A stretch of 21,929 nucleotides of DNA. Origin: a virus. Each line of letters begins with the position of its first letter. Positions within the stretch are counted from its first letter, which is position 1. A model generated the notes under the pieces. It ran no database searches, had not been told where the DNA came from, and was given only the letters and a program-made list of their open reading frames with translations. Location: positions 3,584-25,512 of IMG/VR virus record IMGVR_UViG_3300003690_000089; one strand, given 5' to 3'. Of the stretch, positions 1 through 19,189 are shown one piece after another. A program made the translations under genes and the position numbers.

Positions 1-3000
1 GATTCGACATACTTGAAGTGGCTGTGCCGAACAGCGGAAATGTCAAACTGACCACCGCCGACAGCGAACTCTCTTTCGACTGACCGGATCTGGTCCAGGA
101 AGTTCTCCCGGAAGAGCACAGCCTCAGCCGCCTCAGTAGACTCAAACATGATGGGGAACGGTTGCTTCCCACCCTCCTTGCTGGACGCGGCGATAAAGTC
201 ATCAACGTAACCCTCAATGGTGCCGTCGCGTAAAGCACCGCGAATCCCCTTGGAGAACTCAACCTGAACCTTAGAGCCGTCAGCAAACATGCCTCCAAGC
301 CTGGTCTCAAGCGCAGCCTCTGCCGCCTCGGGCGTCAGCCTCGCATGATTCATGATGTACTCTTCGCGGGTCATCTCCCACGGCAAGCTGTCTGCGGTTG
401 CGGCCAGCCTCTCCCCCGGCATCACCGGAAGTGGATTTCGCAGGCTGTACTTTTGCCCCGCTACAGCATATGGGTCTCGACTGTAGAGCCGGGTGATGTG
501 GTCGTGCTCGTACTTGAGCATATCGCGAAGAATGGGCCAGTCAGCCTCTTTAACATTACGGAGACGCTCTGCTACCCGGTAGACAAACTCACCGGCAGCG
601 CCATCCGCTTCCCGCATTCCTGTTTGCCATGCATCCGCCAAGCGGTTGTTTCTGTCGTACCACCAGGCCCTCGCCCTCACTTTGCTGACCTTAAATAGGC
701 CGGGGATGCCGATGGAACCTGGGCCGTCGAGTATCCAATGAATACCGCGATTGGCGAGGGCAAGCTGACCGAAGACCGGAAGCGAATACATGGCGGACTG
801 ACGAATGAAATCCGCCATGTCCGAGAGGGCCTTGCCATCGTTTGCCAGGTCCCTGGCCCTCTTTGGGATGCCGGCCTGCCTGATCGCCGTGCGCCGCTGT
901 CGGCTTACCTGTCTCGCCTGGTGCCTAAGGGCCTTCCTGTGGGCCATCTTTGTAAAGAGAAGTTCGACAATACCAGCCTCGCCGGCCTTTCCGTATATCA
1001 GACCCTGAAGCTCGTCGATCTGTTGCGCAAGATCTGGCACCGCTAACTTGTCCAGCTCGTGCTGCCTTACTCTGATGTCACGCAGCTTCGCCTCCAACTC
1101 GGCCACCCTGGCGGTTTTGCCCTTCTTGCGCGCCCTGGACAGCGCCGACTTGGTTCTCTTCCACTCCAACTTGAGTTCTGTGTCGAGGATCTGCCGACCA
1201 GACCCCCTGGCGTTGACGTTAAAAGCTTCGCCCGCCTCCAGGGTTTTCTCGTGGCGAAGCATTCTGTTGTTGGTCCTGTGAAAGTTTTTGTTGACGACAT
1301 TGTTCAGGCCGTCAAGCTTGCCCTTCAGTAGCTCATTCAGGGTCTTTATCGCCTCGGAAACCTCTGCGTTCTGGGCGACAAGGGTCGCGGCAAACTCTTT
1401 TTCGTCTGCCGAGAGATGCACTCGCTCTTCCAGGAGGATATCGTCGGTCACCTCCAGAGCGCTTCTCCCGGCCCTGGCATCCTTTAGTTGGAACTTGGCG
1501 CTCTTCAACTGGGCCTTGGCTGATTCGACGGCGGTCTTTCGCGCTTTGCCAAACACAACAACATCCTCACCGAGGAGTTGTCTGGCCCTGGTCAACAAAC
1601 GACCGGCCCCCTCTTCCGCCCGCCAACTCGCGACCTTGGTCACCCTCGGCATGGCCTTGGCGTCTTTAAGTGCTTGTTCCGCAGTCTTTACCGCTTTCTC
1701 TGCGGCTGAGATGGCCGCCGCTTTCCGCGCTTCCACCTGCTTTGCCTCAAAGGCGCTCCTGCCGGTGCCCCTAACCCCCTGCTCACGAGAGGCTTTTGTG
1801 TATTTGGCCGTTGCCTCTTTTATCGCAAGATTCCTCGCCTTGCCATCGGGCATGGCCTTGGCCCGCTCCAGCCCTGCCGTTGCCTTCTTCATGGCCTCTG
1901 TTGTTGGCTTGGTGTACTTGGCCTTGTCCATCGTAAGCCGCGCCTCATCGATTGCGATGGCTCTCTCCGCAACCTGGCGATGCGTCTTTGTCGGCATGGC
2001 CCTTGCCTCTTTCATGAGCATCTCAGCACTCTCTACCATCTGCCTGAGACCATTCGTCTCTGCTTCTGCAAGAAGCCGCGCGCTTGAGATTGCCCTGGAT
2101 GCCATGATCCGGGCTGGCAACATTGCGATGTCCGCCGCCATCAGTATATCCAGGAACACCTTGAACGCGCCTTCATTGAAGACAGCCGCTGGATCCTTGA
2201 AGTACATCTTGTATCGGTGACCAAGATGGTCGCCCATCTGACCAAGGAGGTCTCCAGACGCCTTGAGTTTGGTCTCGGTATCAATGTTTGGATCGCTCCA
2301 GTACGAGGCTACCTGACCAAGACCGCGAACAAGATGAACCGCAACCACCGCTGCCCCTGGTATTTCGAGCATGGTGTTCTTGACTGCTTTGTTCCACTCA
2401 AATGCCGATTCTACTTGGCTGGGCATCCTGCGCTGATCGATATATCCGAGACCCTCTGGCACCCGAACGCCTTGCTGACGTGCCGCCTCCCACATCAACG
2501 GCATCATGACATCGGCATTCTTCCAGGCGAACTCAGCCATGGAGTCTTCAACATCATCAAATATGGTCCTTCGGCCAGTAACAAAGTGTTCGCCAAATCC
2601 GAGCACACCCCGCATTCCGCTTGGTAGCCACTCTGTAAGGGAAAGTTCAACAATGTCTAGCGTTGCGCTCACAAGCCCCTTTGCCCGCCTGTAGCCGGGA
2701 TCCACCGCAGACCCCAACAAAGACCCGACGGAAGCAGTCCAGTTCCAGTAGGTCTCATTGGGGTCTATATCAACACTACCAAACACGTTGGGGAAGGCCT
2801 TGGCCAGGAACTGCTGCGGAATCGAGTACATCCCGTAGTAGGCCCTCGCAAAACCCTCATAGTAGAACCAGGGATCGTCGACATCGGCACCAGCCTGGCG
2901 ACCGAATGGTCCCCAGGTCATCCTCATCTCACCGAGACCACGGGCATAGGCACCCTCCCGCACCATGCTCTCAAAGGTCTGCTCTGCTCGTTCCTTGAAG

Positions 3001-4058
3001 ACCCTGTCAGCCGTCCTATTGACCGCCTTAAAGTGCTCGGCCTGCTGCTTTCTGTTCTCGCGGTACCCCTTTGCCGTTTGAGCCGCGTTGAAAAGATCAA
3101 CCCAGTCCTCTTCAGGCCCCTCCTTCTTCGGAAGCATCTTGACCGTGGCCTCTTCGATAACCTTGCCGTCCCTGTCTCGACTTGCCGGCACGTAGGTTGG
3201 CACATCTTCGCCCACCCTGGCGTTCTTCCAGGCAGGCATATCCTCGAGCCTGGTGGCGATTTGCAACGGTGGGAGGGCAAGCGCCAGGTACCTTTGCATT
3301 GAAGGGCCGTCCCTGCCTTGTACACCGGCGAGCGCTCGTAGCGTTTCAGCCTTTTCCTTCTCTCTCTGCGCGAGGAGCCACTCCCTTGTCTCCTTGTCAT
3401 TGTAATCCGGGACAATGGATCCATCCGGCAACTGCACGTATTCTATCGGCGGCTGACCCTGCTCCCTGAGGAGCTTCTTGGCCTTCGCCGTATAGCCGCC
3501 GACACGGAGCGGCTTCCGCTTCAGATCGCTTACTATCCTGAGCGTCTCTTTGCTGTACTCATCGACCGCCGTCTGCACTTTCCCTAGCTCGCCGCTGGCC
3601 TGCAACTCCTCAAGGAGCTTGCCGTAAGGAACCCACGACAGACCGGCTTCGCTGTATGCCGCAGCGTTTTCCCGGGTCTCGGCAAAATACGGACCCCGCA
3701 ACCCAACCGGGTCAAGGCCGAGCTTGATTACCTCCTCGCCCTTGCCGAGGATCATCCGCTTCATTTGTCCTGGGGTGAACTTCTCCCCTTCTGGCGACGT
3801 AAACACCGGCTCGCCCGTGGGGCCCTGCACCCCCGGGGGGAGATGCTCCCACGGTTCGGGCTTTTCTTCAGGGAGAGGGGGGAGTTGGTACGGACCCTTC
3901 TCCTCTTCAGAGAGAGGGGGGAGTTGGTACGGACCCTTTTCTTCAGGCTGGGCAACCACCTCTTCTTCAGAGAGAGGGGGGAGTTGGTAGGGCCTTTCCC
4001 TTTTCTTCTTCTCCTCCTCTTCCTCAGGGAGGGGAGGAAGCTGGTAGGGTCCTGCCAC
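1..4058 (-). CDS. Giant internal virion / polyvalent-type protein, 3' end outside window
   Basis: I read one uninterrupted frame of 1352 codons from a GTG at 4058 to the left edge, with no stop, so the protein is longer than seen. The start is chosen because AGGA (4067-4070) lies 8 nt upstream and the 746-aa gene ends 3 nt before it; the first in-frame ATG is only at codon 99. In order: four PYQLPPL repeats separated by acidic linkers (residues 4-65); a mixed charged region; a Trp/Tyr-rich stretch (about 375-460); hydrophobic helices near 565-585 and 630-660; an Ala/Lys/Glu-rich coiled-coil region (about 660-1010) with repeated RAMP/KAMP and AKYTK motifs; then a more globular part containing PWEMTREEY. 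Position after two proline-rich internal proteins suggests an ejection protein, like T7 gp16 (1318 aa) in place and size. PWEMTREEY-like text recalls large phage polyvalent proteins, but that is inference. No enzyme active site is recognised in the visible part. Confidence 0.8.
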   Translation of the reverse strand, partial: MAGPYQLPPLPEEEEEKKKRERPYQLPPLSEEEVVAQPEEKGPYQLPPLSEEEKGPYQLPPLPEEKPEPWEHLPPGVQGPTGEPVFTSPEGEKFTPGQMKRMILGKGEEVIKLGLDPVGLRGPYFAETRENAAAYSEAGLSWVPYGKLLEELQASGELGKVQTAVDEYSKETLRIVSDLKRKPLRVGGYTAKAKKLLREQGQPPIEYVQLPDGSIVPDYNDKETREWLLAQREKEKAETLRALAGVQGRDGPSMQRYLALALPPLQIATRLEDMPAWKNARVGEDVPTYVPASRDRDGKVIEEATVKMLPKKEGPEEDWVDLFNAAQTAKGYRENRKQQAEHFKAVNRTADRVFKERAEQTFESMVREGAYARGLGEMRMTWGPFGRQAGADVDDPWFYYEGFARAYYGMYSIPQQFLAKAFPNVFGSVDIDPNETYWNWTASVGSLLGSAVDPGYRRAKGLVSATLDIVELSLTEWLPSGMRGVLGFGEHFVTGRRTIFDDVEDSMAEFAWKNADVMMPLMWEAARQQGVRVPEGLGYIDQRRMPSQVESAFEWNKAVKNTMLEIPGAAVVAVHLVRGLGQVASYWSDPNIDTETKLKASGDLLGQMGDHLGHRYKMYFKDPAAVFNEGAFKVFLDILMAADIAMLPARIMASRAISSARLLAEAETNGLRQMVESAEMLMKEARAMPTKTHRQVAERAIAIDEARLTMDKAKYTKPTTEAMKKATAGLERAKAMPDGKARNLAIKEATAKYTKASREQGVRGTGRSAFEAKQVEARKAAAISAAEKAVKTAEQALKDAKAMPRVTKVASWRAEEGAGRLLTRARQLLGEDVVVFGKARKTAVESAKAQLKSAKFQLKDARAGRSALEVTDDILLEERVHLSADEKEFAATLVAQNAEVSEAIKTLNELLKGKLDGLNNVVNKNFHRTNNRMLRHEKTLEAGEAFNVNARGSGRQILDTELKLEWKRTKSALSRARKKGKTARVAELEAKLRDIRVRQHELDKLAVPDLAQQIDELQGLIYGKAGEAGIVELLFTKMAHRKALRHQARQVSRQRRTAIRQAGIPKRARDLANDGKALSDMADFIRQSAMYSLPVFGQLALANRGIHWILDGPGSIGIPGLFKVSKVRARAWWYDRNNRLADAWQTGMREADGAAGEFVYRVAERLRNVKEADWPILRDMLKYEHDHITRLYSRDPYAVAGQKYSLRNPLPVMPGERLAATADSLPWEMTREEYIMNHARLTPEAAEAALETRLGGMFADGSKVQVEFSKGIRGALRDGTIEGYVDDFIAASSKEGGKQPFPIMFESTEAAEAVLFRENFLDQIRSVEREFAVGGGQFDISAVRHSHFKYVE
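3864..4049 (-). repeat. Fourfold PYQLPPL-(S/P)-EE coding repeat
   Basis: The N-terminus of the giant gene carries PYQLPPL four times, at residues 4-10, 23-29, 43-49 and 56-62, each followed by S or P and then an acidic run (EEE or EEK). The three copies nearest the capsid-distal side share almost the same DNA, while the first copy uses other codons (CAGCTTCCTCCC against CAACTCCCCCCT). Spacing is 19, 20 and 13 residues. A fifth, decayed copy may exist around residues 69-76 (PWEHLPPG). Confidence 0.9.
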
Positions 4059-4061
4059 TAT

Positions 4062-6302
4062 CTACTTCCTGACCAGATGTTCTATTTTCTTGAAGGCCTT
4101 CTCTACGGCCTTGGTGACATCTCCTCCCGACGCATTCATTGCATCCTCGAGGACTTTTTCAACAGTCGACTCCTTCCCGCCTATCCTTACCTTTGTCCCT
4201 TTTTTCGACTGTTCATTAAGGAAGGCGTGCTTATTAGCGGTAGTCCAACCCTTGGTGCTTACCCTTTTGCCGGTGGGCGCTTCTGTTGTTTGTTTGGGTG
4301 GCAGCGTCATCTTCAACTCAGGCTGCTTCTTTACATCTGTTGGATCTATCCCTTCTTCCTTAGTGTCTTTCTGTGAAGCCATTAGGTTTTGAAGCATTGC
4401 CTCCGCTGAGGACATGGCGTTCGGACCCAGCGGCTCGAAGTTTACGAGCTTTTTGGAAAAAGCAGTGCCCGCGTACATCCTCTCTCGCGTATCCATAATT
4501 GATTTAATTCTTGCTTTGATTAACTCCTTCGAAACCCCCTGGAGGTGCTTTTTGCTTTGAAGGCGCAGGCTCAATGCATGTTTGAGGTTCATCATTTCTA
4601 CGGCAAAATCTTGCTGTTCCTCCACGCTCAGGTTCTTGAACCCCTGAGTTTTGGTTAGAATCACCACCGCATGCGCTCGATCTGCCAGCTTTTGCGTTGT
4701 CTTGTTCTTAAACTTCTCCGCAACGACGGCCAGCTTGCCGGAATACTCAGCTCGATAACGACCAACATCCAGGCCTTCCGCCTTGAGGGAAGCCCATATC
4801 TTTTCTGAGGCTTCTGGGGTGCCATTCATTATCGCCTGCGCCACATGCGCGGTGGTCCATGTCTGCCCTGTTTCCTTGGTCATCTGCGCAGCCACGTTGC
4901 CCACCACCACAGAGTTTTCCGTCATCATCTTTTTTATGGACGCAGCGGCTGCCTTGAGGGCCGCTTTGCTGGGCTCTGGCGGCTTGTCACCCGCTGGCGG
5001 TTTCTTCCCCCTCCAGCCGGGGGCTCGGAGGTTGGCCCACTCTTTGGATGTCTTGCCCGCTGCCGTAAAGAAATCAAACGCGTTACCGCTCTTCAGCGCT
5101 TTGTCAGTTATCTGGAACCGGTGCATAAACTTTCTGAGGCGACCCCTTCTCTCTTTCGGGGTGGTGTCCTTGATCGCTCCGGTGATTGCCTTGATCTCAT
5201 CAAACATCGCCTTTCTTTTGGCGATCACTAGCTTTTCCTCCGCTATCTCCTGTTGGCGGACGAACTGCTTTGCTTGAATCTGGGCCATCCTTCTGAGGCG
5301 GTATTCCTTTGGCTTTGTCTTCTTGAGCCCTGGGTCAATTAGGTCTGGGGCCACGACCCCCTTGATGGCCGCTTCTACCTTTGCCTGGGGTGTGTCCGCT
5401 GGCTCACCGTAGGCGTCTCCCAGCAAGGCCTCCGGGGAGCGGGTGCGAAGGAATCGTTCAGCCTCCTCAACCTGTCTGACTGCCGCCTCCTCCTTCGTGG
5501 CCGGTGGTCTCCCCTCTAAACCAAGCTCAGCCGGCGCAGCGGGCGCATACCCGCGCTCTTCAGCCATGGATGGCGGCGGGGGCATGTCCAGAAGCGCGCC
5601 TTTGAACATCTCAGGCTGAAGCCCTCTCGGTGCCTCTCTGGGTAGCGGTGGTGCCGGCTGTCGAGCTACGTCCGGCAACGGAAGGCCTGGCGCTACCACC
5701 GGCGCGGCCCTCGGGGGCTCAAGTCCTGCTGCGGGCTGTACTCCCATCGCCATGGACGGCGGGGGGCGCTCCCCAAGCTCAGTCCTTGGGATCTCCGGCG
5801 CAAGTTCAGGCGGTCCAACAAATTCAGAGGGTTGCTGCATCGCCTGAGCGAGTTCCTGGCCTATGACCTGGGCAGACTGTAGGTTGCGAGCCGCCTGCAT
5901 CTTTGCCTGGTTAGCACTCGCCTGCTTCTGCTCAGCATCAGAGAAGCCAATGATGGCATCCATCGTGTATTCGTTTAACTTGTTCTTTGTTCTTAGTGTC
6001 TTAAGCGCCTCGCCAGCCGTTTCGGTTTTGACTCCCGTCAGCTTAGTGGTGGCTTTCGCCTGGGCGATACGGGCCTGAGCTGCCGGAAACTCCTGAGCAA
6101 TGCGCTCAGCGCCAAGCCCAACAGTGCTCTTTATGACCTGACCAAGCGCAGCCTCACCAACGCGCTCCCAGAACCCCGGCTTGGCGCGCTCCTGTGCTTC
6201 AATCGCCTTGTCCTGTCTGAAAGCGGCCCCACGCTGCCTGGCCAACTCGGTCAGGTAGCCAGGGGCAATGTTTGGAACTGTTCCGTATTGTGATCGTGGC
6301 AT
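4062..6302 (-). CDS. Putative internal virion (ejection) protein, 746 aa
   Basis: The ATG at 6302 follows GAGGG with about 8 nt spacing and sits 22 nt after the 676-aa gene. The protein is basic and mostly helical. Residues 1-60 hold an amphipathic helix with FWERVGEAALGQV; about 80-165 are rich in Ala, Gln and Lys; 165-265 are rich in proline with repeated PPPSMA motifs; about 290-480 are charged coiled coil with IDPGLKK; the C-terminal end (about 680-746) is Lys-rich with GWTTANKHAF. There is no signal peptide and no recognised enzyme motif. The place between another proline-rich protein and a giant protein at the end of the morphogenesis cluster, and the length of 746 aa beside 747 for T7 gp15, support an ejected core protein. 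Homology to gp15 is not shown. It ends in TAG, three bases before the GTG of the giant gene and in the same frame. Confidence 0.75.
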   Translation of the reverse strand: MPRSQYGTVPNIAPGYLTELARQRGAAFRQDKAIEAQERAKPGFWERVGEAALGQVIKSTVGLGAERIAQEFPAAQARIAQAKATTKLTGVKTETAGEALKTLRTKNKLNEYTMDAIIGFSDAEQKQASANQAKMQAARNLQSAQVIGQELAQAMQQPSEFVGPPELAPEIPRTELGERPPPSMAMGVQPAAGLEPPRAAPVVAPGLPLPDVARQPAPPLPREAPRGLQPEMFKGALLDMPPPPSMAEERGYAPAAPAELGLEGRPPATKEEAAVRQVEEAERFLRTRSPEALLGDAYGEPADTPQAKVEAAIKGVVAPDLIDPGLKKTKPKEYRLRRMAQIQAKQFVRQQEIAEEKLVIAKRKAMFDEIKAITGAIKDTTPKERRGRLRKFMHRFQITDKALKSGNAFDFFTAAGKTSKEWANLRAPGWRGKKPPAGDKPPEPSKAALKAAAASIKKMMTENSVVVGNVAAQMTKETGQTWTTAHVAQAIMNGTPEASEKIWASLKAEGLDVGRYRAEYSGKLAVVAEKFKNKTTQKLADRAHAVVILTKTQGFKNLSVEEQQDFAVEMMNLKHALSLRLQSKKHLQGVSKELIKARIKSIMDTRERMYAGTAFSKKLVNFEPLGPNAMSSAEAMLQNLMASQKDTKEEGIDPTDVKKQPELKMTLPPKQTTEAPTGKRVSTKGWTTANKHAFLNEQSKKGTKVRIGGKESTVEKVLEDAMNASGGDVTKAVEKAFKKIEHLVRK

Positions 6303-6324
6303 TTGTTAATCCCTCACCCTCTAC

Positions 6325-8355
6325 TTATGCGTAGTACGCCCCTCCATGGGTCCAACCATATTCTTCTTTCAGCCACGCACCAAATTTTGCAGTCCAGAGC
6401 TGGCCGTCTGGTTTTACCATGTTGTGTCCCGTCTTTTGATAGAACGCTTTCTCGAGTGCCTCCTGTACTTCCTGGGGAGCATTTTCCCACTTCTTCGCGA
6501 CCATGGTGGCCTTGTCGGATCCGACGGGTGCGTTCATCTTCCAGCCCTTGTGTTCGACTTCTCCACCCTGAAGATCTGGATCCTTCAACCCAAGACGGAC
6601 GATCCCGGTCTCCTTGTCTGTGTAGGTGTAGAGATTCGCCATTACCTCAGCGGCACTCATCGGCGCGTCAGGCTTACCGTCTCCGTCGGTATCGTGAACC
6701 AGCTCGGTCATGGCATTGAAGGCATATGACATTGCATCATCGTCGTATGCCTGCGCCATGGCAGCCATGTTGTTGAGCTTGGTCCATTCGTCGGCAAGGA
6801 CATTCTGGTCTTTTTCGTACTTGAACTTATCCTTCTCAAGAGCGCTCATCTCGTCAAAGATGTCTTTGCGGTTCTGCTCGCTCATCATCTGACCGTACAT
6901 CGACATATAGGCCTTCATCTTGTTGAGCTTCTCATCGATGGCCAGCTTGGCGTTCTCAAACCGCAGGTTAGCGACCGCTGCCACTGTCTGCGATGCAATC
7001 TGCCCCATGCCCGCGCCCGCAATGCCAGACGCTCCTAAGCCACGAGAAGCCATCTGCTGAGCGAACTTGGACATTTGATCAGCCGACGCCATCTGAAGCT
7101 GCGCAATCTGCCCCTTAAGCTCCTCTTCAGGAATACCGGTGGACTGGGATAGATAGTCGGAGAACGCCTTCTCGTACTTCTGGTGCTGAGCTAGGGCCGT
7201 CTGGGTATCTCCGTGGCCGTATCCGTACTCAGTCACGCCTCCCGGTAAATCATCAGGGTCTGCGTCATTGCCGTATTTGTCGTAGTAGTTGCCATCCTCG
7301 TCCTGGTACCAGGAGTTGCCCTGATCATCTGTGAACTCCGTCCAGCCCTCCTGCTTGGCAAGCTCCTTTCCGGCCTGTTCCTCTGCCTCCAGGCCGGGTG
7401 TCGTCCCTTCTACAGTAACCTCCTCTTCCGCATCGGGCCATGTAGCCTCCTCCAGCTCACTGCCCGACGGCAACGCCTCTTCTTTTTCCTTAACGGCGCT
7501 CAGGTCTTTATATTCAGGCTTAGGCGGGGCCGCCTCGTAGGTGGGCTCGGGGTCTTCCTTGGTTCCATACACCGGTGGCGGCTCTTTTTCTTCATCGTAA
7601 ACCGGTGCAGCAGTCGCAGGTGCCTCCGGCGGCATCTCCAACACTTCCTCGACCTCGCTCGTTGGCGGCACGGCCGGTGCCCCTTCCTCAACATCCTCAT
7701 ACAACCCAGCCTGCTGGCCTGGAGCACCCCCAGGCTCTGGTTCTACCCCCTCGCCGGCACTGGGACCACCCAGCGGTGTCGGTCCGGGTGGAATCCCTGG
7801 ACCACCCTGCGCCTCAAGCATTTGCATTTTCTCGTCAGGAGGCTTGGGTATCGTTGGGTACTGCGTTGGCTGCCCACCCTGACCCTGAGCCATTGCATTC
7901 AAGTTATCCCACGCAGCCTGCTTGTCCTGACCCTGCGTTGGCTGCTGCATCTGACCCATGGCTGTTGCATTCAAGTTATCCCACGCAGTCTGCTTGTCCT
8001 GAGCAATAATCGCGGCGGCACGACGTCTTCTGTCCGCTTCAGTCATGCCAGCCGGCTGCATCTCACCCTGCACTGGCTGTCCCGGCCCGCCGCCCATGGC
8101 GGGAATTCCAGCGGGCGTCTGTTGGACTGCCGATTGAGGGGGAGCGCCGGATGGTCGCTGCGCAGGGTTGAACGGGCGTGTCTCTGGAATAGGGGGTGCG
8201 CCAGGCTTTGGCTGTCTTGCTCTCGCTGCCGCTGCCATCTTTAGCATGCCTCCCCCGCGAGGAGGTGCCGACGGACTCCGCTGGCCAGCGCCCATGGCCT
8301 CGTTTGCTCGCGGAAGCCGTGGGTTCTTGTAAGACTTTCTGTCATACATCGGCAT
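6325..8355 (-). CDS. Putative internal virion protein with proline-rich head and Ca-binding-like loop, 676 aa
   Basis: The ATG at 8355 has AGGAG 7 nt upstream, embedded in the stop of the preceding gene. Residues 1-120 are basic and rich in Pro, Gly, Ala. Residues 119-165 hold two tandem copies of a 24-residue unit (QDKQ-A/T-AWDNLNA core). Residues 170-330 are acidic and proline-rich, so probably disordered. Residues 340-370 contain aromatic and acidic text such as DEDGNYYDKYGN. Residues 385-500 are a predicted helical, Gln/Met/Ala-rich section with ASRGLGASGIAGAG, a type of motif seen in internal virion and minor structural phage proteins. Near residue 554, DTDGDGKPDA matches a calcium-binding EF-hand or thrombospondin-type loop. 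The C-terminus ends in a Trp/Tyr-rich tail. Function is inferred from position after the spike genes and before two further large proteins; no enzymatic domain is visible. Confidence 0.7.
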   Translation of the reverse strand: MPMYDRKSYKNPRLPRANEAMGAGQRSPSAPPRGGGMLKMAAAARARQPKPGAPPIPETRPFNPAQRPSGAPPQSAVQQTPAGIPAMGGGPGQPVQGEMQPAGMTEADRRRRAAAIIAQDKQTAWDNLNATAMGQMQQPTQGQDKQAAWDNLNAMAQGQGGQPTQYPTIPKPPDEKMQMLEAQGGPGIPPGPTPLGGPSAGEGVEPEPGGAPGQQAGLYEDVEEGAPAVPPTSEVEEVLEMPPEAPATAAPVYDEEKEPPPVYGTKEDPEPTYEAAPPKPEYKDLSAVKEKEEALPSGSELEEATWPDAEEEVTVEGTTPGLEAEEQAGKELAKQEGWTEFTDDQGNSWYQDEDGNYYDKYGNDADPDDLPGGVTEYGYGHGDTQTALAQHQKYEKAFSDYLSQSTGIPEEELKGQIAQLQMASADQMSKFAQQMASRGLGASGIAGAGMGQIASQTVAAVANLRFENAKLAIDEKLNKMKAYMSMYGQMMSEQNRKDIFDEMSALEKDKFKYEKDQNVLADEWTKLNNMAAMAQAYDDDAMSYAFNAMTELVHDTDGDGKPDAPMSAAEVMANLYTYTDKETGIVRLGLKDPDLQGGEVEHKGWKMNAPVGSDKATMVAKKWENAPQEVQEALEKAFYQKTGHNMVKPDGQLWTAKFGAWLKEEYGWTHGGAYYA
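7861..8002 (-). repeat. 72-bp tandem duplication inside the 676-aa gene
   Basis: The segment 7893-7930 recurs at 7965-8002 with a single C/T difference over 38 bases, and ctgcgttggctg at 7861-7872 recurs at 7933-7944. The offset is 72 bp in both cases, which keeps the reading frame and duplicates 24 residues around AWDNLNA. The middle of each unit has drifted (AMGQMQQ against AQGQGGQ). Confidence 0.93.
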
Positions 8356-8882: not shown

Positions 8883-9653
8883 CTAGCTCCTCTCTTCAAC
8901 TTGGTCAGCATGCACAACATTCAAAGCTGAACCTGTAACAATCTCTTTACTTGCGAAGTAGCTTATCTTCACAGCGCCACCACTTACGTTGTCGAATACA
9001 TTAGAAAGCACCGCTGTCTTGGACACGCTGTCACCAAGGTACACGGTACCACCTAGTGCCTGAAATATGTTGCCTAAAACAAGGCCGTTGCTTGCACTTC
9101 CCGTGAACTCAACAACGCGCTTGTTGCCTGTCTGATCGACGGCTAAAAAATCACAGTCTCGGATGGCGCACCAGTTGCTGGAGACGGTGACACCCTTGTA
9201 AACATCTTCGAATACACAGTTCTTGACGGTGCCCCTGGTCCCTGAACAGGTAATCACAGCTTGTTCGACCTTATCAATGAACCTAATGCCATCAATAATC
9301 GCCCCATCAGCAGAAAGGGTAATAAGGGAGCTGGTGGCGGATGATGTGGACGGGCGTTTGAATATCGTCCTCCCTGGCGATGTGCTCAGAAAGTGTATGT
9401 CCGGGACATCAATGGATATGCTGCCGTCAAACACCCACACGCCTTCAGAGAACAACAGCCTGCCCCCCCTTTTCCCAAGCATGCCGACGGCTTCTCTTAT
9501 TGATGTGAGTGGTGTGATTACTGGGCCGAGTCCGCCGTATATGCCTGCCTCTGCCTCAATCTGACGGCCAGTCGTTCTGAGTTTGTGGTCAACGCTCCAA
9601 ATAACCTGAGGCCTTCGAATGCCTCTCTTGTGTATGGGTCCTGTGGTGGCCAT
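8883..9653 (-). CDS. Right-handed beta-helix tail spike-like protein, 256 aa
   Basis: The ATG at 9653 overlaps the nozzle stop as TAATG, so translation is probably coupled. The first 45 residues (basic, KRGIRRPQVIW) may anchor it to the virion. Residues 46-75 read SIREAVGMLGKRGGRLLFSEG, the usual entry of pectate-lyase-like tail spikes, followed by repeated short beta turns: GAIIDGIRFID, GTVKNCVFEDV, CAIRDCDFLA, NGLVLGNIFQ and AVLSNVFDNV. These coil-per-coil N/D-x-F patterns mark a parallel beta-helix. At 256 aa it is much shorter than P22-type spikes (about 660 aa) and lacks an obvious catalytic carboxylate cluster or C-terminal trimer domain. It may bind rather than cleave its receptor, or the next gene may supply the missing tip. 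Confidence 0.75.
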   Translation of the reverse strand: MATTGPIHKRGIRRPQVIWSVDHKLRTTGRQIEAEAGIYGGLGPVITPLTSIREAVGMLGKRGGRLLFSEGVWVFDGSISIDVPDIHFLSTSPGRTIFKRPSTSSATSSLITLSADGAIIDGIRFIDKVEQAVITCSGTRGTVKNCVFEDVYKGVTVSSNWCAIRDCDFLAVDQTGNKRVVEFTGSASNGLVLGNIFQALGGTVYLGDSVSKTAVLSNVFDNVSGGAVKISYFASKEIVTGSALNVVHADQVEERS

Positions 9654-11875
9654 TATCGCGTGTCTCCGGCGACAACCTCTACGGTCATGCTCTGGACTGC
9701 AAGTTCGGGCCCCCTGAGCGGGGTGGTTCTGTTATGACCCGAGAAGAAGGCCATGCGTAGGGACCGTGAGCGTATTGAAGCGCTTTCGACCTTCGATGTG
9801 AACCAGTCCTCGTCCTGATATGGCATTGATTTGGTGCCGTCCACGCCCCAGGTTACGGCGGTGCCACTATCCGGGGCGTTCCCTGACGAGAAGCGGATGG
9901 TTACTGCTCCGGTGCTCTTGTTCCACGAACTGCTGGTGATCTCAGCCGCAGCATTGAAGTCGCTGTTATTGGCATCAACGATGGTCTTTTCTGTGCCGCC
10001 TTTTGTGAATGTCAGGAAATGACCGCCCGTCACGTCGGTCCAGTATGGTGCCGCATGGTCCGACGCTGGGAGGTCAAAGTTAAAATTCACAGTGGCGCTA
10101 AAGGTCACCGCAGATCCGTTACCCGTGCCTATTGTTTCAGAGTCCTTGTAGGCACCCACACCATAGAAGAAGTTCATCTCCTCTGCCGGGTGAAGCGTGA
10201 TTGCGCCCTCGGTGTATTGTCGGTCACCCGAGTCAGCGTCCCTCACTGTTCCGGCTGTGTTCTTATACTGTGAGTCCGCGTGGGCTTCCTCACCATAGGC
10301 CATCCAAAACGGAGGGTTGGTCATCTGTCCAGAATCGCCGTTGGAAAGCATCTTGAGCCGAATTGGCCGATACAGGTTGAAGGAGTTGTTCTCCTTGAAC
10401 ATGCGACCAGATATGTACATCATCGGGATGTTCGATTCAGCAGCAGCCACGCCGATGTCGGTGCCGCCCACATACTCGAATATGCCGGCTGCCGCAGAGC
10501 TGATAAAAATACGCTCCCTTGCGCCCTTGGTAATGGTGACGCCATCGTACATAAATGACTCTCGTTGTGCTGCTGTCATGCCGCCGTTGGAGAACAGGCT
10601 CCACGCCTGATGATAGTAGTCAAAGACGAGGGTAAGAGACCAGGCCTCGTCAGGGGTCTGCTCGAGATCTAAACCCCACCAAATCTGATTCCGGCTCTGC
10701 ACATGAAGGGCGTTGGATCGATCCAGGTTGTCCATCTTCACGCGGAATGGCCATCCCCTGTCGTACAGGAAGGTCCGCATCTTCTCCGGGACGTATGTGT
10801 TTGTTGGCCGACCCATGAATATTGAGTCGATGGGTTTGCTGATTTTTTGCACAGCCGCCTGCTGTCCCGCCCCGGTAAACGCATAGACCCCGTCTTTGGC
10901 CATAAACATCAATACGCCACCCACCTCGACAATGGAGTGAGGGGCAATGCATCCCACATCAGAGATGACCTTGAAGACCTGGAACGTTTCGTCGGTTCCA
11001 CCGGTCTTCACGTAGATCGAGCGGTCTGTGAAGATGACAAGCTGTTCCATGAAGCTTTTCAGGCCAGTAATCTTCTCGTGTTCCTCCACGGCCAGGAAGT
11101 GGTAGGCGATGAGACCCACTGGGTCGAACTCATCAGACCAAACCACAAACTGGGGTCCAATGCTGAACTTGCTCCTGTCGCCTTGATTGATGAGCATTTC
11201 TGGTATCAGGGACTGAAGCTCATCCAGCGGGCTTGTCAGCTCGACGGTAAAGCCGTCCTGGAAGCCTGCGTAGTACACACGGCTTTGGTGCTCTATGGCG
11301 ATGTGCCCCCTGGGCCTTACGTTCCAATACCCCCAGTTCAGGCTGTTGAGTTGCGTTGGATCATCTGCCATGTCGACTTCAGCGAGCGTCGTCTCGCTTG
11401 CCATTGGGTCATAGACGTATGAGCCGTTCCTGGTGGTTATGAGTGTAACGTGCCTGGGTTCCGTCTTTAGGCCGGTGGCCGGATCGGGTACCGCTATAAT
11501 GACAGCGACAAACGAGCAGTCGAAATCTTGATCAGGCGATTCACCAAACACGGCAGTCAAATCTTGCGGTGTAGCTGTCAGGGACTCCCCGTTAACACCC
11601 AGGACGTTGAACTGCACCGGGTCGTCAGTGTTACCGCCTCGCGGACCAATGCAGATGATGTATTCAGGGATTCCATTTCTGCGGTGAACGTGCATGCGAG
11701 ATCTAGACGGTACGTTAGACGATGTTCTGGCCAGGCCAGCGCGCCCTTCAATGTATCCACGGCTGAAATCTACATTGAGCGCAAGCTGGCAGTGACCATC
11801 GGTCTGATAGTTCTCCCGCTCCTCCATTCCAAGCCACGGGCCCGGAAAGGATTTGGTGTTACTCCCACGGGGCAC
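9653..11875 (-). CDS. Tail nozzle / DNA stabilization protein (P22 gp10 or T7 gp12 type), 740 aa
   Basis: It starts with GTG at 11875, inside the last 17 bases of the adaptor gene, with no strong ribosome site, so coupling is likely. The N-terminus (NVDFSRGYIEGRAGLAR) is typical of nozzle proteins that open with a list of fixed values. Residues about 270-345 carry the family signature: LVIFTDRSIYVKTGG, then ISDVGCIAPHSIVEVGG, then MFMAKDGVYAFTG, a beta-propeller-like repeat of phage nozzle proteins. Residues 560-690 hold an extra Thr/Ser-rich beta domain. The product forms the distal tube of short-tailed phages and plugs packaged DNA. Position directly after the adaptor agrees with T7 gp11-gp12 and P22 gp4-gp10 order. 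The 740 aa are nearer to T7 gp12 (794) than to P22 gp10 (472). Confidence 0.82.
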   Translation of the reverse strand: MPRGSNTKSFPGPWLGMEERENYQTDGHCQLALNVDFSRGYIEGRAGLARTSSNVPSRSRMHVHRRNGIPEYIICIGPRGGNTDDPVQFNVLGVNGESLTATPQDLTAVFGESPDQDFDCSFVAVIIAVPDPATGLKTEPRHVTLITTRNGSYVYDPMASETTLAEVDMADDPTQLNSLNWGYWNVRPRGHIAIEHQSRVYYAGFQDGFTVELTSPLDELQSLIPEMLINQGDRSKFSIGPQFVVWSDEFDPVGLIAYHFLAVEEHEKITGLKSFMEQLVIFTDRSIYVKTGGTDETFQVFKVISDVGCIAPHSIVEVGGVLMFMAKDGVYAFTGAGQQAAVQKISKPIDSIFMGRPTNTYVPEKMRTFLYDRGWPFRVKMDNLDRSNALHVQSRNQIWWGLDLEQTPDEAWSLTLVFDYYHQAWSLFSNGGMTAAQRESFMYDGVTITKGARERIFISSAAAGIFEYVGGTDIGVAAAESNIPMMYISGRMFKENNSFNLYRPIRLKMLSNGDSGQMTNPPFWMAYGEEAHADSQYKNTAGTVRDADSGDRQYTEGAITLHPAEEMNFFYGVGAYKDSETIGTGNGSAVTFSATVNFNFDLPASDHAAPYWTDVTGGHFLTFTKGGTEKTIVDANNSDFNAAAEITSSSWNKSTGAVTIRFSSGNAPDSGTAVTWGVDGTKSMPYQDEDWFTSKVESASIRSRSLRMAFFSGHNRTTPLRGPELAVQSMTVEVVAGDTR

Positions 11876-13810: not shown

Positions 13811-15148
13811 CTAGAAAATCAGGTTATCAACGGTGATGTCTTCGAGCACGGTCTGCCCGAACCGGCGCTCAAGACCCAGGTCGCCGTACCAACACATAAA
13901 CGCTTCCCAGCTATCAGAGTTGGCCTTGCGGCTAAACGAAGAGCCATCACGGTCTGCCCATGCCCAGTCCTTCATCGTGTACATCTTGATGTCCTTCGTT
14001 TGAATGAAGAACAGCTTGTTGTACGGCGCATGTCGGTCGAACTCCAGTGGCATCGGTCGCATGCCTCCAGCATACGTCAACGTCTGGAAACCACCTTTGA
14101 GCTGCTCCGGGGAGTAGCGCACATCCGATGTGAGCAAGTTGATGTACTCACGGCGGATTGAGTGGTGACCCATGATGAGGTTGGGCTCCTCACCAGCGAC
14201 CTCGTCGGTTGTGTCGATGGCAAGCTGCATCAACTCCAGTGACAGCGGTCGATTTGCCCCGCCTGTACCAGAAAGAATGTTAGCCGCCCACTCCGGGTTC
14301 TCCGAGGTGTCAACGTTCTGGAACTCATCGTCATCCTTGGTCATCATAAAGCTGAGGCCGGTGATCTCCTTGTTGAACGAGTTGTCAACATCATCACCGC
14401 GCGCGACACAATCATTGTCTGCGACGGTGATGCTGCCACCTGATGTGTTTGACAATATCGCAGAGGTGGTGTTCGTCACACTCGTAACTGTCAATTCACC
14501 CGTGCCAGCCGTTGCTAATGTGCCGGTGCCTGCGGTAACCCCTGGTCCTGGCCCACCGGTAACCGTTCCGATGTTCAGGGCCATGCCGGCCTTGATATAC
14601 CGAGTGCCTGGGTTATCAAACACCACAGTGCCGCTGGCGTTATGAGCAATGGTGACAGGATCGCCGTTGGCCTGGGCAATTAAGCCCGTGTTGGTCGCGA
14701 AGGCGTTTACAACGCCACTTGCGGCAATTGGATTGCCCCAAACCATGCGGTTCATATCCACACGCAAGTCACGACGCACGCCCTCGACCTCTGTCCGCAG
14801 AGCGGAAGCGAACGAACCCTTGTCGCCTTCGGATGCGGCAATAACCACACCTGTCAGCTCGATTCGTCCATAGAGGAACTTAGCCCGAATACGACATTCG
14901 GTGTAGGCCTGCTTGCCGGCATTCGGAAGCGTTCCCGTCTCGCCGCGAGCACCAACGCCGTGGTTCCGTCGCAGATGGACCGGAAAGAGGATTTGCCGCC
15001 CACTCCACTTGCGCTTGGATTTCTCCACGTACTTGAGGATGGGAATAGAATTATTGAGGTGTTCCCGTACGGGCCCCTCATAGTAATTTTTTAGTACAAA
15101 ATCAAAATTATCTCGGGGACTTGACCCGATTCCTGATGTGAGTGCCAT
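13811..15148 (-). CDS. Major capsid protein, HK97-like fold with an inserted domain, 445 aa
   Basis: The ATG at 15148 follows AAGGAG (15156-15161) with 7 nt spacing, one of the strongest ribosome sites in the window, as expected for the most abundant product. The N-terminal arm (residues 1-60) and the text GRQILFPVHLRRNHG and GRIELTGVVIAASEG match the N-arm, E-loop and beginning of the P-domain in HK97-type shells. Residues about 175-265 are a Gly/Thr/Val-rich beta insertion (GTVTGGPGPGVTAGTG) that looks like an added I-domain. The chain then returns to A-domain-like text (LIMGHHSIRREYINLL) and ends with VLEDITVDNLIF. It lies between the scaffold gene and a terminator-like hairpin. It is somewhat longer than simple HK97 shells, which the insertion explains. 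Confidence 0.88.
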   Translation of the reverse strand: MALTSGIGSSPRDNFDFVLKNYYEGPVREHLNNSIPILKYVEKSKRKWSGRQILFPVHLRRNHGVGARGETGTLPNAGKQAYTECRIRAKFLYGRIELTGVVIAASEGDKGSFASALRTEVEGVRRDLRVDMNRMVWGNPIAASGVVNAFATNTGLIAQANGDPVTIAHNASGTVVFDNPGTRYIKAGMALNIGTVTGGPGPGVTAGTGTLATAGTGELTVTSVTNTTSAILSNTSGGSITVADNDCVARGDDVDNSFNKEITGLSFMMTKDDDEFQNVDTSENPEWAANILSGTGGANRPLSLELMQLAIDTTDEVAGEEPNLIMGHHSIRREYINLLTSDVRYSPEQLKGGFQTLTYAGGMRPMPLEFDRHAPYNKLFFIQTKDIKMYTMKDWAWADRDGSSFSRKANSDSWEAFMCWYGDLGLERRFGQTVLEDITVDNLIF

Positions 15149-15919: not shown

Positions 15920-18082
15920 CTACCGTGAAGCAGCTTCAAAGCCGGTCTCGTAGTCAGGTCGTCCGGGGCCTCGTGAACCAATTGCTTGATTCAGCTCCGG
16001 CGTTCCCCCACCCGCGAGTCCGACGGGCGGTCCGCCTCCGGTTGGAGGGGGGCCTGGTGGCGCTTGCGCGCCCTGTTCTGGTGCCATGGGGGCACCACCC
16101 TGCGCCGGAGCACCCGGCGGCATTCCCGGAGCACCCGCTTGCACATGCATCTGCCACCAGGGTTGCCCCTGTTGGTTTTGGCTTTCGGCCTGATAATGCC
16201 AAGCGAGGTGTCTCTCGAAATTCTGTTGATGCTCTTCGGGAAGCAGTCTGAAATCGATGGATTTCATGTAGCTCAAGCACTCATCGATGTGAGTTACGTG
16301 GTCCTCCCACGGCTGAACATCCTGCGGTTTCCCGTTGGCCATCATGTGATTCTCTTCTCTGGCGTAGTTGCGATCTTTAGTCTCATCGCCATACACCGGA
16401 TCCATGTCCCCAAACTCCATCATGCGGCGGGCCTTGATGCCCGTCTGTGGGTCCTTTGGATCGCCCAGGATACCCACCTGGTACATCTGCATGATTTGCT
16501 CACGCCGATAACTTGGGTGTTTCGGTAACATGGAGTTCGCATGCACGCGCACCCGCGTATTCTTTATCTGCTCCGCGAAAAACTCGACCACCTCAACCGC
16601 TCCGTTTCGGCCCATGATCTGAACTGCCTGCGGCACCGGCATGTATTCGCGCACCATCCACAACATCATTGAGCACATCTTCTCAATGGCGTGCTCTATC
16701 TCCCTCACCGTCGGACCAAGCTTCGTGGCGTCAAGGTCAGACAGCAAACCAATCGCGCGTCCTGATGTCTGCGATGGTGCCATCCCGCGTGTAACGTCCG
16801 AGACGCCACTGATGGCCTGAATATGCTCAATTTGCTCTTTCTCGAGCATCTTGTGTTCTGGTGATAGCGGAGGCGGGGGCAGTGGCTCCGGGGGCCTGGC
16901 GGCGGTTCTGTTGTAGAAGATGATCTCCCCCGGCTCATCGGTGAACGTCTGTTTATCAACCGAGCCCTTCTCGGCCCGCCACTTGGGCTGGGCGTGGAGA
17001 TTCTTGTTCTCAATGCGTTGCGAGATACTCTTGTTCAGCTCTTTTTGTGCAGGGATAACCGAAGTAACAACACCCTCGCCCGCAAAGCGACCAGGAACAG
17101 TGTTATGGCGAGCCATGACGAACGGCAGCTTGCCGTAGGGCAGGATTTCCTGCTCCTCAAGGACAACGCTTTCCGCCACGATGGTATAGTAGCCCTCCGG
17201 GTGGCGGGGGCTCGGCCTTTCAAAATACTCAAGAACCAGCACTCGGTCTAGGTTTTGATCGTCTGTCTGGCTCGATCTCGAGTATTCGCGCAGCACCTGC
17301 TGGCTGTACTGGTCAACCTCGTAGCTGGAGTCCGGGTGTACGTGCTTTCCACGGTCCGGCCAGCGATCTCTTACCTCGTCGATGTGCATCATGTTGGCAT
17401 GGATCATCCATCGACAAGTCTCCATGTCCTTTGCGCCTGGGTCCCAGCCCACCTCGAGCGGACTAATGACATCAATCACAGGGAGACCCGTCTTGGACTC
17501 CGGTCGCTCGGGAACCTCTTCCACTGAGTCGTTGATGTAGTCAAGCGTTGGCTCAACCTCGTCGTCCAGGTAATCATCGCCGGCAGCGTCATCCCACCAA
17601 ACTTTGAAGAAAACCGTGCCTGTCACAGCCATCCACTTAACGGCCTCATGAAGCTTGATTTGCATACCAAGCTCCTGCCAGAGGTAATCCAGCATGTGAT
17701 CGCACTGACGCGCCGCTTCGATATCGTCATCGTCCGTGGAGGCGGGCGAACACATAAAGCCAGGACGGTTCTCGGTCAGCTTCCCGGCCAACGTCTCAAC
17801 TGTGGGTAGAATATAGTTCAGAACCATCCGCACGCGCCACGGCGGCGGGTTCTCATCAACGAGCAAACGAGTCACCCGGTTGAACCGCGCCCACTGACGA
17901 CCCGTGAAGAAGGCTAACCCAAGCCAGCACTTCTCAATAATAAGCTGCTTCGCGCTCTCAGAATGATCCCACTGGTCACGAACGTACTTAGCCGCCTTTC
18001 GCTCCTCATCGGTCGGAGTGTAGGGCTTTACCTTTTCATCCAGCTCGGTGTATTGGCTGGATATGGGACCGGAATAGCTCAT
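15920..18082 (-). CDS. Portal protein (P22-like type), 720 aa
   Basis: The ATG at 18082 overlaps the preceding stop as ATGA, so translation is probably coupled. The N-terminal part has ESAKQLIIEKCWLGLAFFTG followed by RQW, then NYILPTVETLAGKLTENRP, the usual opening of P22-type podovirus portals. The middle carries GTVFFKVWWDD, ISPLEVGWDPGAKD and GRAIGLLSDLDATKLGPT, in positions expected for the wing and stem. The last 80 residues are rich in Pro, Gly, Gln and Ala (GAPGMPPGAPAQGG) and probably form a flexible tail inside the head. The protein makes the dodecameric ring through which DNA enters. At 720 aa it is close to the 725 aa of P22. Neighbours are a small gene of unknown role before and the scaffold after. 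Confidence 0.88.
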   Translation of the reverse strand: MSYSGPISSQYTELDEKVKPYTPTDEERKAAKYVRDQWDHSESAKQLIIEKCWLGLAFFTGRQWARFNRVTRLLVDENPPPWRVRMVLNYILPTVETLAGKLTENRPGFMCSPASTDDDDIEAARQCDHMLDYLWQELGMQIKLHEAVKWMAVTGTVFFKVWWDDAAGDDYLDDEVEPTLDYINDSVEEVPERPESKTGLPVIDVISPLEVGWDPGAKDMETCRWMIHANMMHIDEVRDRWPDRGKHVHPDSSYEVDQYSQQVLREYSRSSQTDDQNLDRVLVLEYFERPSPRHPEGYYTIVAESVVLEEQEILPYGKLPFVMARHNTVPGRFAGEGVVTSVIPAQKELNKSISQRIENKNLHAQPKWRAEKGSVDKQTFTDEPGEIIFYNRTAARPPEPLPPPPLSPEHKMLEKEQIEHIQAISGVSDVTRGMAPSQTSGRAIGLLSDLDATKLGPTVREIEHAIEKMCSMMLWMVREYMPVPQAVQIMGRNGAVEVVEFFAEQIKNTRVRVHANSMLPKHPSYRREQIMQMYQVGILGDPKDPQTGIKARRMMEFGDMDPVYGDETKDRNYAREENHMMANGKPQDVQPWEDHVTHIDECLSYMKSIDFRLLPEEHQQNFERHLAWHYQAESQNQQGQPWWQMHVQAGAPGMPPGAPAQGGAPMAPEQGAQAPPGPPPTGGGPPVGLAGGGTPELNQAIGSRGPGRPDYETGFEAASR

Positions 18083-18393
18083 ACGTTAGTCGGTTGCACC
18101 CCGCCATATGTGGGAGCCTCTTGTTGCTGATACCGTCTCCGAAGTCTGTCTCTCAGCATCATCGCAGCCCGAAGACGCGGATCTATAGGTGCCTGCTGCA
18201 CGTTCAATCCCTGGGCGGGGGCAGGTGCCTGTTGCCCTGGCTGAGTGCTCTGTGAGGCAAGGCCCTGCTTTCTCTTTCGCTCTGCAAGCAGGCGAAGCAG
18301 GTTTGGATCAATCTGTGCAGGACCGGCTCCACCTGGAGCCTGAAAACTCGGCTTTTGCTGCTCTTTTGAAAACTCAAATTTAGGCAATGCCAT
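18079..18393 (-). CDS. Small basic protein with duplicated IDPxL motif, 104 aa
   Basis: The ATG at 18393 has GGAGG 6 nt upstream, a strong site. The protein is rich in Gln, Pro, Ala and Arg. Two segments repeat: AQIDPNLLRLLAERKRK at residues 26-42 and APIDPRLRAAMMLRDRLRRR at 68-87, each an IDP turn followed by a basic helix, 42 residues apart. The linker between them is Gln/Pro-rich (QPGQQAPAPAQG). It ends in ATGA with the portal start. I do not recognise the family. The basic helices could bind DNA, scaffold or portal; this is inference from composition and place. Confidence 0.6.
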   Translation of the reverse strand: MALPKFEFSKEQQKPSFQAPGGAGPAQIDPNLLRLLAERKRKQGLASQSTQPGQQAPAPAQGLNVQQAPIDPRLRAAMMLRDRLRRRYQQQEAPTYGGVQPTNV

Positions 18394-18405
18394 TACTCAC
18401 CTCCA

Positions 18406-18747
18406 CTAAACCGCCCGGGGCGGAACGGCCGCACCGCCCCCTGCCCTGGCCATCGCAGCACCGCGAATCCCTTCCGGGGGCAGTCCACCGCCGCCGGGGG
18501 GCCCGCCAGGAGGTCCACCAGGGGGGCCGCCGGGAGGTCCACCCTCTGGGGCAGGCTTGCTCAGTTCAGCAACAATGAGTTGCTTCACCTGTGGCGGCAA
18601 CTGCATCAAAATCTGCATCAAGTCGCCAAGCGATGGCCCTTTATCGCCACCAGGAGGTCCGGCCCCGGGAGGCGGTCCACCGCCAGCCCCAGCAGGAGGT
18701 CCGGGGGGTGGTCCAGATTCTGGCCCTGAAGGTAAGATCGATGCCAT
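18406..18747 (-). CDS. Pro/Gly-repeat protein, 113 aa
   Basis: The start is the ATG at 18747: GGAGG (18756-18760) lies 8 nt upstream and the preceding gene stops one base before it. A longer frame reaching 19047 exists but overlaps that gene and lacks such support. Residues 1-35 are GPP-rich (SGPPPGPPAGAGGGPPPGAG). Residues 36-68 form one clean helical segment (SLGDLMQILMQLPPQVKQLI). Residues 69-88 are GGPP repeated four times plus GGGG. The end is Gly/Ala-rich. Family unknown. A short helix between two flexible arms would suit a virion linker or scaffold-binding part. Confidence 0.55.
   Translation of the reverse strand: MASILPSGPESGPPPGPPAGAGGGPPPGAGPPGGDKGPSLGDLMQILMQLPPQVKQLIVAELSKPAPEGGPPGGPPGGPPGGPPGGGGLPPEGIRGAAMARAGGGAAVPPRAV
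18484..18543 (-). repeat. GGPP coding repeat
   Basis: Residues 69-84 of the 113-aa protein read GGPP four times, followed by GGGG; the DNA repeats ggaggtcc/ccaccagg-type units. A second, less regular GPP-rich stretch lies at 18655-18725 in the same gene. Confidence 0.85.
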
Positions 18748-18748
18748 G

Positions 18749-19189
18749 CTAGGATCCTCCAAATATCTTCTTCTTGATGTTGCCCGCCGCAGCGAGTCTT
18801 GCGGTTTGTGGCATCTGCATGCCTGGGCCTGCGCCAGGGTCGCGAAGGCTGGAACCCGATGACTTGTACGGTGCTGGCTGGAAAAATCCAGGCCTGGGTG
18901 GTGGCGGCTTTGCGGCAACTGCCCTTTTGCTGCCCGTCCCGCCAAACAACCAGTCAACCGCCGCGCCAACTGCCAAACCAATGAGCCCACCAACGGGGCC
19001 TGCGGCCCAGCCCCCAGCGGCCAGCGCGGTGCCTGCGGCGGCAGCACCGATTCCTGCGCTGGCCCCGCCTATGGCACCTATGGTGCTGCCAATCGCCATA
19101 CCCGTAGAGCCTTGGTAGCCTGGATCTCCTGGTTCACCAGGCTTCCCCTTGGCCCCGGGGAGCGAGTATACAGGCAGTCTACCCGCCAC
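18749..19189 (-). CDS. Collagen-like plus glycine-zipper protein, 146 aa
   Basis: The GTG at 19189 follows GAGAGG with about 7 nt spacing and starts inside the last 11 bases of the preceding gene. Residues 12-30 place Gly at every third position (GAKGKPGEPGDPGYQGSTG), six collagen-like triplets. Residues 30-85 are a long stretch of Gly, Ala and Ile with small-residue zipper spacing (GSTIGAIGGASAGIGAAAAG), able to span or coat a membrane, ending at VDWLFGG. The rest is Pro-rich then basic (KPPPPRPGFFQPAPYK; NIKKKIFGGS). Family unknown. A glycine zipper in a virion protein can be membrane-active during DNA entry; collagen triplets often give trimers. It lies between terminase and portal, where such a protein is not standard. 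Confidence 0.6.
   Translation of the reverse strand: MAGRLPVYSLPGAKGKPGEPGDPGYQGSTGMAIGSTIGAIGGASAGIGAAAAGTALAAGGWAAGPVGGLIGLAVGAAVDWLFGGTGSKRAVAAKPPPPRPGFFQPAPYKSSGSSLRDPGAGPGMQMPQTARLAAAGNIKKKIFGGS
19100..19156 (-). repeat. Collagen-like G-X-Y triplets
   Basis: Gly occurs at residues 12, 15, 18, 21, 24, 27 and 30 of the 146-aa protein, with Pro or Lys in several X and Y places. Confidence 0.85.

Follow-up and report, generated by a model that had tools for sequence, protein, structure and literature searches.

Ejection proteins of short-tailed phages

A known protein that resembles the one discussed here is gp50 of phage N4, the virion RNA polymerase (vRNAP); each virion contains 4 ± 1 copies of it, which are expelled together with gp51 and gp52 (PMC12633501). 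No deposited structure showed significant structural homology to the C2 domain of gp50, and the same paper describes the C-terminal domain as being of unknown function (PMC12633501). The C-terminal 1400 aa of gp50 were reported to be required for encapsidation and the N-terminus was implicated in injection (PMC5512222); the encapsidation role is cited as unpublished in another report (PMC4496689) and traces to partly unpublished work. A survey of polyvalent proteins described one of the two C-terminal parts of gp50 as common to more diverse proteins, namely the upstream part, which carries the HExxH signature.

The N4 ejection genes lie in the order gp52, gp51, gp50. In T7, the order is gp14, gp15 (747 aa) and gp16 (1318 aa), followed by the fibre. 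Ejection proteins, gp15-like proteins above all, are largely matched by size and synteny (PMC8954989).

A giant gene in a late operon

The window, i.e., the whole stretch of 21,929 nts analysed here, corresponds to bases 3584-25512 of a 25,512-base virus contig. On its minus strand, a stop-free frame of 1352 codons runs from a GTG at position 4058 to base 3 (3..4058). Over 300 base-shuffles of the same stretch, the longest stop-free run was 377 codons, which excludes chance as the origin of the open frame, and the codon-position GC of the frame (0.63/0.43/0.67) is of the coding type. An earlier note, made from the letters of the window, had read this region as one frame open at the left edge, and both points were confirmed. 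The part of the contig left of the window showed that the gene goes on for ~870 codons beyond a 38-N scaffold gap (contig 3546-3583), which directly adjoins window base 1, and ends at a TAA at contig 960. The raw stop found shortly left of base 1 is an artefact that arises from reading through the Ns. In an alignment to the giant protein of the close relative G012, the piece within the window stops at G012 residue 1337 and the gene resumes left of the Ns as SLQKALVAEQAMIQRRLEVMNRHDD..., with 57% identity from residue 1356, hence ~18 residues lie inside the gap. Summed by alignment, the full gene has ~2260 codons and encodes a protein of ~2260 aa.

Upstream of the giant gene, and likewise on the minus strand, lie in order a 746-aa gene (4062..6302), a 676-aa gene (6325..8355), small genes and a gene for a 740-aa tail or stabilisation-type protein. 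Farther upstream are the major head protein (13811..15148, minus strand; phrog_14242, E 8.6e-65), a scaffold-like protein, a P22-type portal protein (15920..18082, minus strand; PF16510, E 1.8e-41; phrog_156, E 3.8e-60) and the terminase. The P22-type portal places the giant in the late operon of a short-tailed phage. In the direction of transcription, the 676-aa and 746-aa genes are the first and second members of a putative ejection trio, the latter in the position of T7 gp15, and the giant is the third and largest, followed by a tail fibre. The largest gene of the operon thus comes directly after two smaller ones, as in a gp16-like trio, and the order is also like that of the N4 trio. The first protein is much larger than T7 gp14. 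Searches of Pfam and PHROG gave no family match for the 746-aa protein and no significant one for the 676-aa protein.

This order is conserved in relatives, as far as each contig reaches. In G007, G012, G013, G014, G015 and G016, giants of 1709-2221 aa stand third after two mid-sized proteins, and a fibre-like gene follows the giant in several of them. Gene position and trio order are shared with gp16 of T7 and P22, but there is no detectable sequence similarity to either, and the giant is considerably longer and lacks a transglycosylase domain. The portal of Arthrobacter phage Casserole (Jasminevirus) is related (26% identity), and the giant gene of this phage, gp27 (1803 aa), lies at a comparable late site; however, gp27 gives no significant profile match to the giant and belongs to its own PHROG, unlinked to the family.

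Other features of the neighbourhood can be noted. Residues 242-358 of the 740-aa protein (9653-11875, minus strand) match PHROG families named as internal virion, tail appendage and amidase proteins, and the protein is probably a tail hub or stabilisation protein. Between portal and terminase (18079-19189, minus strand), glycine- and proline-rich unannotated frames overlap and the coding frame is ambiguous. In G016, unlike the other contigs, the portal (L042, contig 6040-8142, minus strand) and the giant (L040, plus strand) are on opposite strands, which is a rearrangement or a misassembly.

The C-terminal core resembles the end of the N4 vRNAP

BLAST links the giant of the window to ten others through a C-terminal core of roughly 350-500 aa, which in this phage lies left of the window (~contig 1100-2500). 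Its members range from G012 to giants of Helicobacter pullorum prophages and of an environmental podovirus, and the N-terminal parts are alike within clades only. The first lead to a known protein was a weak match of the family near the C-terminus of N4 gp50. A profile of the core of 11 giants was then compared by HHalign with a vRNAP profile, to which the C-termini of 12 further Schitoviridae vRNAPs had been added, giving a probability of 96.2%, an E-value of 2.7e-9 (for one comparison) and a score of 84.6 over 250 columns. The control maxima were 23.7 with permuted columns, 42.1 with 15-column blocks and 26.3 with reversed profiles. The matched region of gp50 (residues ~3130-3461) is the last part of the C2 domain, and motifs occur in the same order in G012 and N4: IQPD and VRRD; KTI....TH.TNWLGN and KTV....VPAVNFLAN; MGDDYYR and YSDFIAK; further pairs, again in the same order, are RRAFADYENLNGLF and TEEFINYDRLPGRF, and FVAFDARTTPLVVQKMQQSP and FYNFKIRSIKVAMSMIRNNP.

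Independent subsets of the family align to the same place in the vRNAPs. The match persists at E 5.7e-6 when the three farthest members are removed, and four distant members alone reach E 1.4e-7. Core profiles made only from the clade of the window, G012 and G015 are not significant (E 0.02), although they fall in the same place, so the signal needs the wider family. In HMMER searches of 315 real ORFs, the giant profile places vRNAPs directly after the family, and with the vRNAP profile the best-ranked ORF outside the vRNAPs is a giant. These alignments make it very likely that the core of the giants and the last part of the N4 vRNAP C2 domain are homologous.

Similarity was seen only at this end of the protein. 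Compared with the N-terminal region of gp50, its RNA polymerase (N4 1007-2101) and its C1 region, the N-terminal parts of the giants score at control level, and comparisons with T7 gp15, T7 gp16, P22 gp16 and N4 gp51 gave no match. The giant shares with gp50 ~250 aligned core columns with their motifs in order, its giant size and the last place in an ejection trio whose genes are ordered by size. It differs in length (2260 aa versus 3500 aa), in having acidic peptide arrays at the N-terminus, and in that no single-subunit RNA polymerase, no C1 HExxH and no similarity to the gp50 N-terminus were found. Judged by its sequence, the giant of the window is not a vRNAP, and the present family appears to extend the downstream C-terminal part of gp50 to phages without the polymerase. 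A giant of a Helicobacter pullorum prophage (BK070138, 2045 aa) has the same core (HHalign 92%, with a BLAST link through G017), but a different N-terminal part, which carries an HExxH signature and no peptide array.

Searches for enzymatic domains

The two breaks in the giant gene, the 38-N gap and a second one described below, were left unmended and its pieces were searched separately. Sequence searches of Pfam, PHROG, NCBIfam and PDB assigned the giants to no family; weak matches, among them Med14, DUF494 and phrog_2177, were put down to coiled coils or to chance. No match was found by tblastn of the pieces against 50,697 phage records, and no host came to light when bacterial genomes were scanned with the head protein and a distant giant. 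AlphaFold models of six sequences had a pLDDT of 39-41, owing to little sequence depth, and Foldseek found nothing with these models, hence no structural claim is made.

In the earlier note, any enzymatic part was expected to lie beyond the window. The remainder of the gene has now been recovered save for the two short breaks. Searches detected no protease, ADP-ribosyltransferase, transglycosylase, LPD or RNA polymerase domain, so this expectation was not upheld. HExxH was found neither in the pieces of the giant nor in G012. An LPD38-type polyvalent protein was considered as a lead and found no support in a profile search, in which LPD38 (PF18857) gave no match at E up to 10, nor any in the control genomes. 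The N4 gp50 C-terminus does not match LPD38 either.

Upstream of the core, HELVH is found in the giant of G006 (L020:10119-15812, residue 458) and HELIH in that of the H. pullorum prophage (L043:10858-16995, residue 978), both resembling the HELVH at residue 2228 of N4 gp50. The signature is absent from G007, a near relative of G006. Some giants may therefore carry a zincin-like domain, as vRNAPs do.

These signatures in two distant relatives, which recall polyvalent proteins as well as vRNAPs, are consistent with a polyvalent-type effector, delivered mainly against host defences, whose enzymatic domains are too diverged to be seen. The giant is also very long, multi-domain and variable at its N-terminus, as such an effector could be. 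However, Pfam detects no enzymatic or LPD domain in the giant or its relatives, the pieces from the window's phage lack HExxH, and the gene is placed in the ejection trio rather than at an accessory site. We regard a role mainly as an effector as unlikely; it is compatible with, and not exclusive of, the reading as an ejection protein.

Gene integrity and segments of the protein

The second break lies near contig 2350 (~2340-2360), where the frame changes and ~38 residues present in G012 are missing; the last frame beyond it encodes 478 aa. Such a pattern could mean that the gene is truly split, by a programmed frameshift or as a pseudogene. On the other hand, the G012 giant is a single intact frame of 2221 aa and is longer at this place, the pieces on both sides of the break are conserved (57% and 66% identity), and the break lies in a metagenome contig, 1.2 kb from the scaffold gap. 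Near contig 2350 there is no sign of a canonical slippery heptamer, and with G012 intact and longer there the programmed frameshift was set aside. A true split is accordingly given little credence. The left end of the contig (G000, L002) carries assembly faults, namely this frame change and the 38-N gap.

Within the window, three segments of the giant are held in common with G012 by alignment: residues 96-421 (2796..3773, minus strand; 36% identity), residues 549-687 (1998..2414, minus strand; 58%) and residues 788-1352 (3..1697, minus strand; 34%). The second contains the hydrophobic stretches at residues 559-584 and 634-652, which by hydropathy alone are candidate membrane helices; hydrophobic helices had been mentioned in the earlier note. 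The third comprises part of a charged coiled-coil-like region and the PWEMTREEY text. The giant is not a plain coiled coil, and full-length likeness to one was not found. Retention in the particle, as a protein of tail or head with a structural function only, would suit the late-operon position and the helical, coiled-coil-like content, but is very improbable in view of the homology to the ejected N4 gp50, the trio order and the absence of a tape measure of such size from short-tailed phages.

Acidic peptide arrays at the N-terminus

The giant begins with an array of PYQLPPL, whose four copies are at residues 4-10 (4029..4049), 23-29 (3972..3992), 43-49 (3912..3932) and 56-62 (3873..3893), all on the minus strand. 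Acidic residues come after these copies, and a fifth copy is found at the C-terminus of the protein, outside the window. The array noticed earlier is real: the first 130 residues contain 47 near-identical 6-mer pairs, compared with a mean of 0.5 and a maximum of 5 in shuffles. PYQLPPL was not found elsewhere when the whole contig was looked at. Comparison of copy 1, copy 2 and the C-terminal copy shows 3-5 synonymous changes but no amino-acid replacement, which indicates selection on the peptide. Over the motif, the DNA of copies 3 and 4 is identical, and these two are a recent duplication.

At the same site, other giants carry other peptides: DYR[QSD]F[TE]IG[DP]P five times in G012, two copies of PPYDEVEVPP and a looser third one in G013, DDVDLLFEELGY twice in G016, and a weaker pair, DIFD.I..D[IL]GVG, in G015. 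No N-terminal repeats were found in the remaining giants compared. The repeat-bearing giants have a net charge of -11 to -17 over the first 95 residues, and the charge of the remainder ranges from neutral to strongly basic; for the giant of the window, the count covers the in-window piece. The repeats would serve in multivalent docking or capsid targeting, and the differing acidic motifs of the relatives are perhaps fast-changing docking peptides. The 670-aa trio protein of G016 (L040:1330-3342) ends in SPPYEDV, resembling the PPYDEVEVPP repeats of the G013 giant; such a peptide may move between trio proteins.

Proposed role and significance

We conclude with good confidence that the giant is a ~2260-aa ejection (internal virion) protein, the third of the ejection trio of a short-tailed phage, of the N4 gp50 type but free of the polymerase. 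It is read as packaged and ejected because of the conserved trio order and the homology of its core to the ejected N4 gp50. According to the earlier note, the gene might encode a multi-domain protein carried into the cell along with the DNA; gene order and core homology to a packaged and ejected vRNAP speak for such an entry, and only the enzymatic part of the suggestion fell away.

From these comparisons we infer roles in packaging, ejection, channel formation and docking. By analogy with N4, the C-terminal core would serve to package the giant in the capsid. During infection, the giant would be threaded out through the tail as a string of loosely connected helical units, and its hydrophobic helices, together with the two smaller trio proteins, could help to form a DNA channel. 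The acidic N-terminal tail with PYQLPPL, along with the C-terminal copy, would provide multivalent docking to a partner in the virion. The giant would thus work like N4 gp50, packaged and ejected, without a recognisable polymerase or metalloprotease.

A broader reading, which we put forward only tentatively, sees in the last part of the N4 vRNAP C2 domain a general module for the packaging and ejection of giant virion proteins, which unrelated short-tailed phages join to different N-terminal cargoes, N4 being the polymerase-carrying case. As part of the same tentative reading, the multi-copy N-terminal peptides of the clade (PYQLPPL, DYRQFTIGDP, PPYDEVEVPP and DDVDLLFEELGY) might be exchangeable address tags that co-evolve with a virion partner.

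That the C2 end also occurs in polymerase-free giants of other phages speaks for packaging or ejection, and not transcription control, as its original function. The alignment of giants and vRNAPs marks conserved C2 residues that are worth testing, and the fast-changing N-terminal arrays give a way into the question of how phages load the proteins that they deliver.
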